A DNA stretch of 64,000 nt from Methyloversatilis universalis EHg5. GTDB lineage: Bacteria > Pseudomonadota > Gammaproteobacteria > Burkholderiales > Rhodocyclaceae. The DNA lies in NCBI RefSeq assembly GCF_000378945.1, contig NZ_KB900539.1, forward strand, positions 551,241 through 615,240, written 5' to 3'. This document shows, piece by piece, positions 21,575-30,270 of the stretch. A program made the translations under genes and the position numbers. Below the pieces are notes generated by a model. It ran no database searches. It was not told the origin of the DNA and worked only from the letters and a program-made list of their open reading frames with translations. Within the stretch, counting starts at the first letter, position 1, and each line of letters starts with the position of its first letter.

Positions 21575-21624
21575 TGGTGGGCCCCCTGGGAGTCGAACCC
21601 AGCACCAACGGATTATGAGTCCGC
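21575..21624. repeat. attL: 50-bp copy of the tRNA 3' portion
   Basis: Identical to 30221-30270. It contains the complement of the 3' CCA, T arm, variable loop and anticodon loop, then diverges at 21625 inside the anticodon stem. This copy cannot form a full tRNA and is the displaced tRNA end left by integration. It marks the left boundary of the element. Confidence 0.92.
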
Positions 21625-21739
21625 GAAAATGGATGCTCATCAGCTACCCTGCTCTTTGTACGTTCGTTTCAACCAAATGATTTATATGAAAAAGATGGCT
21701 CGCGTTATTGTGAACCCCTCTTGTTGGTGCTATGGTTTT

Positions 21740-21760
21740 GGCTACACGATGGCTACATGA
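21740..21760 (+). promoter_or_regulatory. Left integrase arm-type site
   Basis: Two GGCTACA copies (21740-21746 and 21751-21757) spaced by exactly 11 bp lie between attL and the integrase. The 21-bp unit recurs near the right end (30145-30165) in the same orientation with 19 of 21 bases identical. This is the arrangement expected for arm-binding sites of a tyrosine integrase. Confidence 0.65.
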
Positions 21761-21798
21761 TGTAACCGCCGATTGATCGTAGTAGCTCGTTTGGCACC

Positions 21799-23208
21799 AT
21801 GAACCGAGAGCGCCTGACCCTTGATCGAATCGCCCGATTCGTCTGCCCTGCCGACAAGCAGCAGGCCTTCCTGTGGGACACGGAAGCGCCCCGCTTGGCG
21901 GTCCGTGCGACTGCCGGCAGCAAGTCCTTCATCTTTGAGGCCAAGCTGCACAGAAAGACGGTCCGCCAGACAATCGGCAGCGTGCAAGCGTGGGATATCG
22001 CCGATGCGAGGGCTGAAGCGCGCAGGCTGCAAACCCTGGTTGACCAAGGCATAGACCCCGCCCAAGAGCGCAAGCAACGCCTTGAAGCCTTGGAGGGGGA
22101 GCGGGAAAGGGCGCAGCGCACTGATGCCCTCGCGCTTGATGCCTGGGCTGCTTACATCGAAGCCCGCAGCCCTAAATGGACACCCCGTAGTCTGGCCGAC
22201 CACTACGTCATGACGACCGAGGGTGGCAAACCAAAGACGCGTGGCCGCAGACCCGGCGAAGGCACCACAACCAAGCCCGGCATCTTGCGTCCTCTGCTGT
22301 CTCGCCCCCTGAACCGGATTGACGCTGAAGCTGTGCGGGTCTGGCTGTCATTCGAGATAGTGAAGCGCCCGACTCATGCTGCACTGGCTTTCCGCCTGCT
22401 GCGGGCCTTTTTGAACTGGTGTGCAAGCTCCGAGCACCTTGCGGAGCAGGTGCATGTGGACGCCTGCAAGGTTCGCAGCGTGCGCGATCAGCTACCGAAG
22501 AAAGCGGCCAAGAATGACTGCCTGCAGCGCGAGCAACTAGGTTTGTGGTTCGGGCGGGTCCGCGCCTTACCCAATCCGATTCACTCCGCTTACTTGCAAG
22601 TGTTGCTGCTGACTGGCGCACGTCGGGAGGAACTCGTCGACTTGCGTTGGGATGATGTCGACTTCCAGTGGAAGAGCCTCACCATCCGCGACAAGGTTGA
22701 GGGGGAGCGGACCATCCCTCTGACCCCCTATGTCGCAAAGCTGCTTCAGGAATTGAAGGCCCGCCGGGATATGGGCGCTGTGAGAGCGATTCCCGTCCGT
22801 GGACCGAATCTGAAAAGGTCCGTTGCCCGGGCCCGGCGTGCAAACGAGGGGGCGGCTAGAGCTCATCAATGGGTGTTCAGCAGCCCCACCGCTGCGTCCG
22901 GCAGGCTTCAGGAACCGCGCATATCCCACAACAAGGCATTGGACGCCGCCGGCCTGCCTCCTCTCACCCTGCACGGTCTGCGGCGATCCTTCGGCACGCT
23001 GTCCGAATGGGTGGAAGTGCCTGTCGGCATCGTTGCGCAGATCATGGGCCACAAGCCTTCCGCTATCGCGGAAAAGCACTACCGTCGCCGTCCGCTGGAC
23101 TTGCTGCGCATGTGGCATACGAAGATTGAAGGCTGGATGTTGGCTCAGGCTGGTATCGAGCAACCTGATGAGAGGGCCCCGAATCTTCACAAGGTTGTCG
23201 GGGCTTGA
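21799..23208 (+). CDS. int: Tyrosine recombinase / integrase (P4-type)
   Basis: A 469-residue protein: an N-terminal DUF4102-like arm-binding domain (about 1-90), a core-binding domain (about 110-230) and a catalytic domain (about 240-440). Catalytic residues are present: Arg275 in TGARREE, Lys299, His392 and Arg395 in HGLRR, His418 in MGHK and Tyr428. It should catalyse insertion and excision at the 50-bp tRNA-derived core. It is transcribed inward, 175 nt from attL. The upstream ribosome-binding site is weak. Length and motifs are complete, so it is probably functional. Confidence 0.95.
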   Translation: MNRERLTLDRIARFVCPADKQQAFLWDTEAPRLAVRATAGSKSFIFEAKLHRKTVRQTIGSVQAWDIADARAEARRLQTLVDQGIDPAQERKQRLEALEGERERAQRTDALALDAWAAYIEARSPKWTPRSLADHYVMTTEGGKPKTRGRRPGEGTTTKPGILRPLLSRPLNRIDAEAVRVWLSFEIVKRPTHAALAFRLLRAFLNWCASSEHLAEQVHVDACKVRSVRDQLPKKAAKNDCLQREQLGLWFGRVRALPNPIHSAYLQVLLLTGARREELVDLRWDDVDFQWKSLTIRDKVEGERTIPLTPYVAKLLQELKARRDMGAVRAIPVRGPNLKRSVARARRANEGAARAHQWVFSSPTAASGRLQEPRISHNKALDAAGLPPLTLHGLRRSFGTLSEWVEVPVGIVAQIMGHKPSAIAEKHYRRRPLDLLRMWHTKIEGWMLAQAGIEQPDERAPNLHKVVGA

Positions 23209-23264
23209 TCAAGGCGGAACCGCCACCGGCCGGTTGCCGGTGAGACATTGAATGGGGAAACAAC

Positions 23265-23615
23265 GTGGATCGCTTCAACGAATTGAACGCACGGCATGAC
23301 AGCGCACTTGACCGCATCGGGATGATGGATGAGCTTGCACCCGGCGTGGCCTGGATGGCACACGAACGCGCAGTGAATGTTGTCCGGGAAAAGCTGAAAG
23401 ACTGCAACCAGCTTTCTGATGCAGGCCGCGAGCAGTTTGTCTTTCTGGAGTATCAAAGGGTCTTCTTGTACGCCTTCTTCACCCATGCGGTGCCTATGGG
23501 GGAGGGGGAGGAGTGGCTGGATAACGCTGCAGCAATCTTCAATGACGTTGAGGTTGCTGCATCACTGCTGACGGATAACTACGTCGAACACCGGGGCGCG
23601 GTTTTCGCGGCCTGA
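23265..23615 (+). CDS. Hypothetical protein of the integrative element
   Basis: A 116-residue protein from a GTG at 23265, preceded by GGGGA. It is predicted largely alpha-helical and acidic, with no signal peptide, TM segment, Cys pair or motif that I recognise. It lies 56 nt after the integrase on the same strand. Excisionase or integration regulator is possible by position, but it lacks an obvious HTH and is larger than typical Xis proteins. Function unknown. Confidence 0.65.
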   Translation: MDRFNELNARHDSALDRIGMMDELAPGVAWMAHERAVNVVREKLKDCNQLSDAGREQFVFLEYQRVFLYAFFTHAVPMGEGEEWLDNAAAIFNDVEVAASLLTDNYVEHRGAVFAA

Positions 23616-23888
23616 AGCCCCAGTAGCACCTGAAGCAAGCGCAACGAATAGCGCACCAGCAGCACCTGATGCACTTCCTACCGGCCCTGTTCAGCGGCTG
23701 GTTTTTCTCCCCCTAGTGTCACTTCTTCAGTCCGGGACGTTGGTCCGGGAGCCCCTTGCATTGTCTTTGCCGCTTTCGGTAATCTCAGGCGAGAGGGCTA
23801 GGTTCTGCAGACCGAAAAGCGCGTTTCCCCCCGTTTCCGCGCCTGCCCTGCTTCACGAAACCGGGGGAGTAAAACGGGGATAACAAGA

Positions 23889-29202: not shown

Positions 29203-29214
29203 CTGCTTACGAGG

Positions 29215-29775
29215 TCATGCCTCTGTCTGCAGGGCAGCGTCGCAGCGGAAACAAACTGTTGCCCTAGCGTCGTTTGTCGCCCTGCACGTTTCGCAGATAG
29301 TGAATGAGGTGGGTTCCCCGGTCTGAGGTGTCGGATGGGCGGCGTAATAAGCTTCGAGAACGTTAGCTGAACCACCCTTCTCCGGCGACGTTATCGGGTC
29401 AAGTTTCGTACCGCAGAAGCGACAGACTGTCGCCTCACCTTTCACCATCTCCGCACAGGAGGGACACTTGCGGTCCTTCGGTGCAGAGAGGCTCAGGGAT
29501 GAGCCGTTCAGGGTGCCAAAGCCAAAGAGCGCGACACCTGAAATGAGCGTGATTGCGGCAAGGGTTATATGAGTGCGTCTTGTTTCCGCCTTGTCTAGAT
29601 TGAAGACTTCTTGGCGTGGAATCTTTATTTCGGGGGTACGAAATGCGTACTCACCGCTACCCATGATTTCACCGCCGATGGTGTTTCCGCCTGTCGTTAC
29701 GGATGTTTCCATGTTGATCGCGTAGATGAGCCAGAGCACGCCGACGCTCATCAAGACAGCCCCAATCACTTTCAT
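29215..29775 (-). CDS. Membrane protein with two zinc ribbons
   Basis: A 186-residue protein starting at the ATG at 29775 (GAGGGG upstream). Two hydrophobic segments (about 4-22 and 70-90) flank a roughly 45-residue polar loop. After the second come two CxxC...CxxC zinc ribbons: CPSC with CRFC, and CETC with CFRC. The ribbons should be cytoplasmic or in a protected reducing location. It is the only element gene on the minus strand and lies nearest attR, where satellites and islands often carry cargo. Family and function are unknown; superinfection exclusion or host modulation is only a guess. Confidence 0.75.
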   Translation of the reverse strand: MKVIGAVLMSVGVLWLIYAINMETSVTTGGNTIGGEIMGSGEYAFRTPEIKIPRQEVFNLDKAETRRTHITLAAITLISGVALFGFGTLNGSSLSLSAPKDRKCPSCAEMVKGEATVCRFCGTKLDPITSPEKGGSANVLEAYYAAHPTPQTGEPTSFTICETCRATNDARATVCFRCDAALQTEA

Positions 29776-30049
29776 CAACTTTTCCCCTCTTTGTTATCTC
29801 GAATTTTGACCAAGGCATAAGCCTGAGGTCATAACCATTCTGCATCGAGCGGTGGCGAGAAATGAAAAAGTTTGAAAAGTTGCCGGCGGTTTTTGGGAGG
29901 GGTGGGCACGCGCAGGTTTTCCTGCACCGCAAAAAAGCCACCCCGTCAAGCAAGGTATATGCCTGGAGAATATCGTGCCTGGCATGCAATTCTCCTTGGG
30001 AGAAAGGCGTGCCAGCTTGGTGCGCTGGTGTGGTGATGCAGTTGTCTTA

Positions 30050-30091
30050 CCCTTGGTCACTGGCCACTGGCCGACGGCCAATGACCAAGGG
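30050..30091. repeat. Long imperfect hairpin containing the TGGCCACTGGCC motif
   Basis: CCCTTGGTCA (30050-30059) pairs exactly with TGACCAAGGG (30082-30091). After one mismatch a further 5 bp pair (30061-30065 with 30076-30080). The interior carries CTGGCCACTGGCCG, which recurs elsewhere in the element. No T-run follows. Confidence 0.55.
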
Positions 30092-30144
30092 CAGCTGGTC
30101 GGCTGCCAGTGTCCAAAGAGGGACGCTGCAGCTCCAACAAAAGC

Positions 30145-30165
30145 GGCTACACAGTGGCTACATGA
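30145..30165 (+). promoter_or_regulatory. Right integrase arm-type site
   Basis: Two GGCTACA copies (30145-30151 and 30156-30162), again 11 bp apart, 55 bp inside the right core repeat. It matches the left site (21740-21760) at 19 of 21 positions and has the same orientation. Confidence 0.65.
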
Positions 30166-30220
30166 AGCTGCAGCACTCTGAGGGGGAAGAGGCCTGCATT
30201 GCTGCAGGCCGCTTGTAGTC

Positions 30221-30270
30221 TGGTGGGCCCCCTGGGAGTCGAACCCAGCACCAACGGATTATGAGTCCGC
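30221..30270. repeat. attR: 50-bp core inside the intact tRNA gene
   Basis: Identical to 21575-21624. Here the repeat is continuous with the host-derived 5' half of the tRNA, so integration restores a full gene. It marks the right boundary of the element. Confidence 0.92.

Follow-up and report, generated by a model that had tools for sequence, protein, structure and literature searches.

An integrative element at a CAT tRNA gene

The window analysed here is a 64-kb stretch (64,000 nt) of Methyloversatilis universalis EHg5 (NZ_KB900539.1), and coordinates are positions in this window unless another locus is named. An intact element of 8,696 bp, bounded by a tRNA gene and two copies of a 50-bp repeat, lies at 21575-30270 (Table 1). 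The repeat is identical to that used by element L065 of a congeneric genome. Its right copy falls within an intact minus-strand tRNA gene (anticodon CAT), which means that integration does not disrupt the tRNA. The heptamer GGCTACA occurs exactly four times in the element, counted on either strand, with one pair near each end; these pairs are putative arm-type sites of the integrase. The G+C content is 0.56-0.63 in all eight 1-kb blocks of 22-30 kb and at least 0.64 in 50 of the 54 blocks outside. A sequence-only reading of this DNA had described an 8.7-kb element with 50-bp tRNA repeats, an integrase, a primase-helicase and an iteron array, and all of these are found where it had placed them.

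We scanned nine element proteins against Pfam, PHROGs, NCBIfam and PADLOC profiles. Significant matches were obtained for the integrase, the winged-helix protein (HTH_39) and the primase-helicase (primase PHROGs), and the zinc-ribbon protein, whose zinc-ribbon Pfam matches fall below the cut-off, matches a PHROG of unknown function; the remaining five have no significant family match. None of the nine proteins matched a capsid, terminase, lysis, relaxase or defence family, and the absence of the first four is what the sequence-only reading had stated. The integrase is under purifying selection (nonsynonymous divergence dN = 0.21, synonymous divergence dS = 1.44, compared with the L065 integrase).

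Table 1. Features of the element and its ends (positions in the window).
Feature	Position	Strand	Remarks
attL	21575-21624		perfect 50-bp direct repeat; copies the 3′ part and anticodon loop of the tRNA
GGCTACA pair, 11 bp apart	21740-21757	+	115 bp inward of attL; putative integrase arm-type sites
Tyrosine integrase, 469 aa	21799-23208	+	PF00589, E 1.2e-15; PF13356, E 3.5e-12
116-aa protein	23265-23615	+	no family match
262-aa protein	23889-24677	+	no significant match
104-aa protein (101 aa if start 24758)	24749-25063	+	no significant match
Winged-helix (wHTH) protein, HTH_39	25060-25443	+	PF14090, E 3.4e-16
Primase-helicase, 896 aa	25440-28130	+	N-terminal half of archaeo-eukaryotic primase (AEP) type by PHROG; C-terminal half a putative D5-like AAA+ helicase
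Iteron array, 14 ACTCAC[AG] copies	28143-28537		copies on both strands; candidate replication origin
p152	28557-28964	+	135 aa from 28557; longest open reading frame (ORF) from 28506; helical; relative in G129
p81	28957-29202	+	overlaps p152; weak relative in G129
187-aa zinc-ribbon protein	29215-29778	-	N-terminal hydrophobic segments; cargo; PHROG 8032 (unknown function), E 7.1e-14
Second GGCTACA pair, 11 bp apart	30145-30162	+	58 bp inward of attR
attR	30221-30270		right 50-bp copy, within the intact tRNA
tRNA gene, anticodon CAT	30221-30299	-	ARAGORN: Met

A primase-helicase beside an iteron array

The primase-helicase has no Pfam match above the cut-off. Its residues 57-323 match PHROG 16345, annotated “primase” (E = 3.9e-30), and its residues 507-882 match PHROG 29234 of unknown function (E = 3.6e-63). 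The predicted structure of the 896-aa protein is confident from about residue 431 onward and poor upstream of it. The AEP assignment of the N-terminal half, already proposed in the sequence-only reading, is backed by the PHROG 16345 match and by tblastn matches, and it stays provisional over a part of the model that is of low confidence. The 50 PDB fold matches shown include D5-like primase-helicases of large DNA viruses, together with two staphylococcal proteins, the SaPI5 primase-helicase (7ola, E = 1.3e-5) and PriRep1 (7pds, E = 2.4e-5). In the model, the helicase fold appears nearest to the D5-like proteins, with query-normalised TM-scores that are low (0.20-0.27), and the sequence itself has no detectable match among PDB chains.

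Downstream of this gene, 14 of the 15 ACTCAC[AG] matches of the whole window fall within 28143-28537. The total of 15 is ordinary (shuffle mean 12.5), but the clustering is exceptional, with a maximum of 3 per 395 bp in 100 first-order simulated windows. As single-stranded DNA this stretch folds far better than its shuffles (z = -8.4), as expected of iterons present on both strands. We consider the array a candidate replication origin on the basis of its sequence. A strong hairpin, CACTGAAACCC / GGGTTTCAGTG, was also noticed within the array at 28200-28232. A 23-nt partial repeat is found at 28202-28224 and 28467-28489 in the origin and at 21546-21568, 7 bp outside attL; when narrowed, the pattern has just two occurrences in the 4.09-Mb genome, of which one lies in the origin and the other outside attL. 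This pair was picked afterwards and may be due to chance.

The start of p152 is probably at 28557, which is past the last iteron and gives a length (135 aa) equal to that of its relative. Its structure model is poor (mean pLDDT, the predicted local distance difference test, 61.7), and a fold search against viral structures returned nothing at E ≤ 0.001.

Accessory distribution in the genus

A homologue of the integrase clade is present in 6 of the 13 genomes of the genus, own genome included, and the primase in 1 of the 13, the own genome. In the congeneric genome G403, a 12-kb stretch matches the left flank in the window up to 17780 and the right flank from 30213, with a single copy of the repeat (92% identical) and no clade integrase in the 12 kb. 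Judged from these alignments, the G403 locus is an empty site with both flanks orthologous. About 3.8 kb to the left of the element (17780-21574, with a 697-aa ORF) is also missing from the otherwise collinear G403, so that two changes separate the two genomes. The same tRNA is occupied in genome G463 by a different, 7.3-kb element that uses an identical 50-bp repeat and whose integrase is 73-75% identical; the replication gene of this element, inspected by eye, appears to be cut by an insertion sequence. Integrase, att repeats and an empty site, by which an integrative element is recognised, are all present, and the element is accessory in this comparison. The patchy presence and the empty site contradict the idea, raised in the sequence-only reading as a possible objection, that integrase and primase are fixed and never mobile.

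Small tRNA elements that share the integrase

At a cut-off of E ≤ 1e-120, the clade integrase was found in 49 of the 345 genomes and 16 of the 68 genera searched in the family (57 matches); the 49 include the own genome and five congeneric ones. We examined 26 loci of the 57 matches (the window, the five congeneric loci and 20 further ones), fetched as 20-kb stretches with a gene caller trained on those loci themselves. At 15 of these 26 loci, 4.4-17.1 kb are enclosed by direct repeats, 28-70 bp long, at a tRNA; in the other 11 no repeat was counted within 20 kb (in one of them a 19-bp repeat occurred, with no tRNA). GGCTACA pairs lie inside both ends of 8 of the 15 bounded elements, including L065, L068 and L069, and the exact motif is missing from the remaining seven, most of which have more distant integrases. 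A gene of 60-70 aa is common to 11 of the 15 and a replication gene to 9 (Toprim and AAA_25 in L152, AAA_25 in L154), but both are absent from the window element. When the window proteins were compared with the gene families of the clade elements by hhalign, one weak match only was obtained (the wHTH protein, probability 28%).

Isolated tailed-phage structural genes occur in at least 3 of the 15 bounded elements (L068, L069 and L154), a lower bound because only part of the clade-element proteins was scanned against families. In L068, portal, tape measure, neck and late activator homologues are accompanied by a chaperone-like gene, and L069 shares this set, with the portal present only as fragments. 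The two tape measures share 67% identity, and their divergence (dN = 0.25, dS = 1.10) indicates purifying selection. A major head protein is encoded in L154 (PF05065, E = 1.7e-9; PHROG 10, E = 1.5e-15). In IMG/VR, 5 of the 19 loci found with clade integrases match at 44-52% identity; one of them, the 12.3-kb contig L163, has a clade-type integrase, the shared small gene, an L143-like helicase-primase pair and then a DNA-ejection homologue (PHROG match). Judged by gene content, the virion genes in these relatives favour a phage-satellite life for the window element.

Phage-inducible chromosomal island-like elements (PLEs) encode tape measure and tail-chaperone proteins and build chimeric tails (PMC12987554), and L068 and L069 look like this strategy by analogy. 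We further noticed a second satellite-like stretch in the own genome (L178, G000:C1:2542001-2558000, about 3010-13831 of that locus), near a tRNA-Ser, with another integrase, an S24 peptidase-like gene, a DnaB 91% identical to that of L068, and homologues of neck and tape measure proteins (the latter 724 aa). Neither a head nor a terminase gene was recognised there, and no end repeat of at least 17 bp was found. In G459, a 10.9-kb element enclosed by an 85-bp repeat at a tRNA-Gly (L179, 3508-14458) combines a primase with genes for a chaperone-like protein, a terminase-small-subunit-like protein and a 753-aa tape measure homologue. Five of the 13 genomes of the genus have a tape measure homologue; in four it lies in a capsid-gene-poor element (L068, L069, L178 and L179), and the fifth locus (L136) is prophage-like by its gene list. 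The four are candidates for chimeric-tail satellites outside the Vibrionaceae, by analogy with the PLEs (PMC12987554).

Relatives of the replication module

Matches to the primase-helicase were found in 17 of 300 genomes of the order (E ≤ 1e-8) and in 13 of 369 genomes of the class (E ≤ 1e-30), own genome included in both. The closest match in the order, in G129, shares 45% identity over residues 372-893 and stands in the gene order helicase, iterons, p152, p81 (weak) and a tRNA 3′ end. A stop separates this helicase from an upstream ORF that, by eye, resembles another primase type. On a second contig of G129, an integrase adjoins an intact tRNA-Pro, and a 65-bp stretch is common to both contigs, which likely carry one element. 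Among 399 genomes of the order, p152 is found in two, the own genome and G129. The G129 iterons are AGTCACC, in 11 copies with spacings within blocks similar to those in the window, and their orientation string is fully contained in that of the 14 window copies, as it is for 4% of shuffled orders. By sequence, then, a cassette of helicase, iterons, p152 and p81 recurs in a distant genome at a different tRNA, with matching iteron order.

Clusters of at least 7 copies of one 7-mer in 450 bp were found in the window and in L020, L031, L094 and L096 among 24 loci checked (shuffles ≤ 4). Most of the other loci have no iteron-like array, and the array is therefore not general to the helicase family. 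Some relatives lie in tRNA elements bounded by repeats, with capsid-protease and neck genes in L092, FtsK/SpoIIIE-like and SbcC-like genes in L022, and a terminase-small-subunit-like gene in L027; L031 has genes for a head protein and for the large subunit of terminase. Behind the primase-helicase of L031, at 12261-12650 of that locus, an array of GTGGCTACA-like motifs was observed, with 11-12 copies of several of their 7-mers; their GGCTACA core is also that of the putative arm-type sites in the window element. Relatives of the primase-helicase are found in 95 phage records, and relatives of its helicase half in 14 plasmid records. Since phage and plasmid matches both exist, the replication module alone is no proof of a satellite.

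The genes behind the primase in L027 and L179 match a terminase small subunit (TerS) PHROG, which prompted us to consider p152 as a TerS-like packaging factor. However, p152 itself has no terminase PHROG match, and such a role remains a guess.

Comparison with named satellite families

In Staphylococcus aureus pathogenicity islands (SaPIs), the satellite initiator adjoins an iteron origin. The predicted helicase fold of the window protein is similar to the primase-helicases of SaPIs and other phage-inducible chromosomal islands (PICIs; 7ola and 7pds), but its sequence matches no PDB chain, and neither PICI regulators nor a TerS were recognised in the element. PICIs are induced under phage-repressor control and redirect packaging; no PICI-type induction regulator was recognised in the Pfam and PHROG scans of the nine proteins. 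Capsid-forming PICIs (cf-PICIs) have their own capsid and packaging genes, and no head or terminase PHROG or Pfam was found in the nine proteins.

For the phage-inducible chromosomal minimalist islands (PICMIs) of Vibrionaceae, int, alpA and prim were taken as the mandatory genes and one further small gene was needed for excision, which shows how a satellite can manage with almost nothing (PMC10803314). The window element resembles PICMIs in its small size (prototype contig about 6 kb), its integrase and primase, its small genes of unknown function and the lack of a capsid-remodelling gene. However, PICMIs lie beside fis, require AlpA and have a primase of DUF3987/DUF5906 type (PMC10803314), whereas the window element lies in a CAT tRNA and has a primase-helicase of putative D5-like AEP type with iterons. 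Neither the marker AlpA (PF05930, or PF12728, HTH_17) was matched at E ≤ 1 in the nine proteins, nor DUF3987 (PF13148) or DUF5906 (PF19263) in the primase.

P4-like satellites are defined by seven components of which at most two may be missing, and have an integrase and a fused primase-helicase that replicates the element, as here (PMC8628076). Of the P4 markers given there, which also include Sid, a custom profile, Psu (PF07455), Delta (PF04606), AlpA (PF05930), epsilon (Ash, PF10554) and alpha (PF03288) gave no Pfam match at E ≤ 1 in the nine proteins. The only P4 component matched was the integrase, which may be of tyrosine or serine type and is here a tyrosine integrase (PF00589). The likeness to P4 drawn in the sequence-only reading therefore holds for the general plan and fails for the marker families. 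AEP-helicase fusions in integrated elements adjoining tRNA genes, as here, are described in the PrimPol-PV1 paper (PMC5862659). IntF-type integrases of E. coli plasmid records share 47% identity over 97% of the window integrase, and no relatives of the primase or p152 are listed in those records. By its markers the element falls in none of the P4-like, PICMI and cf-PICI families, and we do not claim membership; it would nevertheless function in the manner of a minimal satellite. In a small search of the open-access literature, neither this integrase clade nor an element of this kind was the subject of any paper.

Interpretation of the element

It is evident from the sequence comparisons that the element has its own integrase, an initiator-like primase-helicase beside iterons, complete ends and an accessory distribution. 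We favour, at slightly better than even odds (about 0.55), an intact minimal integrative element of phage-satellite type, similar to PICMIs. The element would be excised, upon a trigger, by the integrase together with some excision factor. Either the primase-helicase or the wHTH protein would then bind the A[C/G]TCAC iterons and amplify circular or concatemeric DNA, and the copies would exit the cell inside tailed helper-phage particles and re-integrate at the CAT tRNA. The export step is suggested by the PICMI precedent and by the single virion genes in clade relatives. As a guess, p152 and p81, just behind the origin, might aid replication or hand the DNA over to the packaging machinery of the helper. 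A satellite-like, mobile and self-replicating nature finds good support in the anatomy of the element, its patchy occurrence and its relatives. The conjectural part of the sequence-only reading is the need for a helper phage, and the cryptic replicating island that it offered as an alternative still has to be reckoned with.

Several results weigh against a satellite. No virion, packaging or AlpA/Xis gene was recognised in the nine scanned proteins, and no phage-regulation gene either. No cos- or pac-like DNA common to the clade elements was found beyond control level (6 13-mers of the window element recur in at least two other clade elements, vs 22, 15 and 6 in three control stretches), and 12 of the 15 bounded clade elements, in which most proteins were unscanned, showed no virion gene. 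These three points also favour a replicating integrative island with no dedicated phage partner, which would excise and copy itself and spread passively by generalised transduction or natural transformation. We regard such an island as unlikely, given the phage structural genes in at least 3 of the 15 clade elements and an amplification module of a size that, without plasmid maintenance genes, is typical of satellites. The satellite reading is further weakened by the lack of matches to the element DNA elsewhere in the own genome, by the occurrence of the same replication family on plasmids, and by the IMG/VR scans, which gave no relative of the primase or p152; searches with the primase, a two-row primase alignment and p152 against genome contigs and IMG/VR gave no confirmed relative.

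The plasmid records, together with the FtsK/SpoIIIE-like gene in L022, would also suit a mobilisable integrative element or integrative plasmid that has an unseen origin of transfer (oriT) and borrows the conjugation apparatus of a different element; elements mobilised by an oriT alone do exist. This we consider somewhat less probable still than passive spread, since no relaxase family was matched in the nine proteins (an oriT was not searched for) and p152 matches no plasmid or phage record. Decay from a larger prophage or integrative and conjugative element, another objection foreseen in the sequence-only reading, could account for the several orphan genes and for the stretch without a recognised gene at about 29.8-30.2 kb, but it is very improbable: both ends are complete with arm-type pairs, the integrase and primase reading frames are open, the cassette is kept in G129, and the clade relatives are themselves small bounded elements of similar size.

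Returning to the satellite, we infer that the element is a member of a set of small tRNA elements, defined by their integrase, among which replication and virion genes are exchanged. It is conceivable, at somewhat less than even odds, that this set is an undescribed satellite lineage of the bacterial family, in which one integrase/att chassis uses several tRNAs and carries swapped replication modules, of Toprim-AAA_25 type, of DnaB type or of D5-like AEP type accompanied by iterons. Single virion-remodelling genes would likewise be swapped, some members having a tape measure together with chaperone and neck, others a capsid gene and others none at all. The window element would then be a stripped form with a portable cassette of initiator, origin, p152 and p81, which a distant genome has as well, at a different tRNA and close to a different integrase.

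If the element is a satellite, the minimal-satellite plan, described for Vibrionaceae, would reach a further bacterial family, where it relies on a different initiator. The clade would also provide a natural series, from elements with no recognised virion gene to those with a capsid gene or tail genes, for studying the minimum that a satellite requires and the way in which virion-remodelling genes are acquired. The two iteron arrays, ACTCAC and AGTCAC in the same orientation order, offer a testable case of initiator-origin co-evolution.

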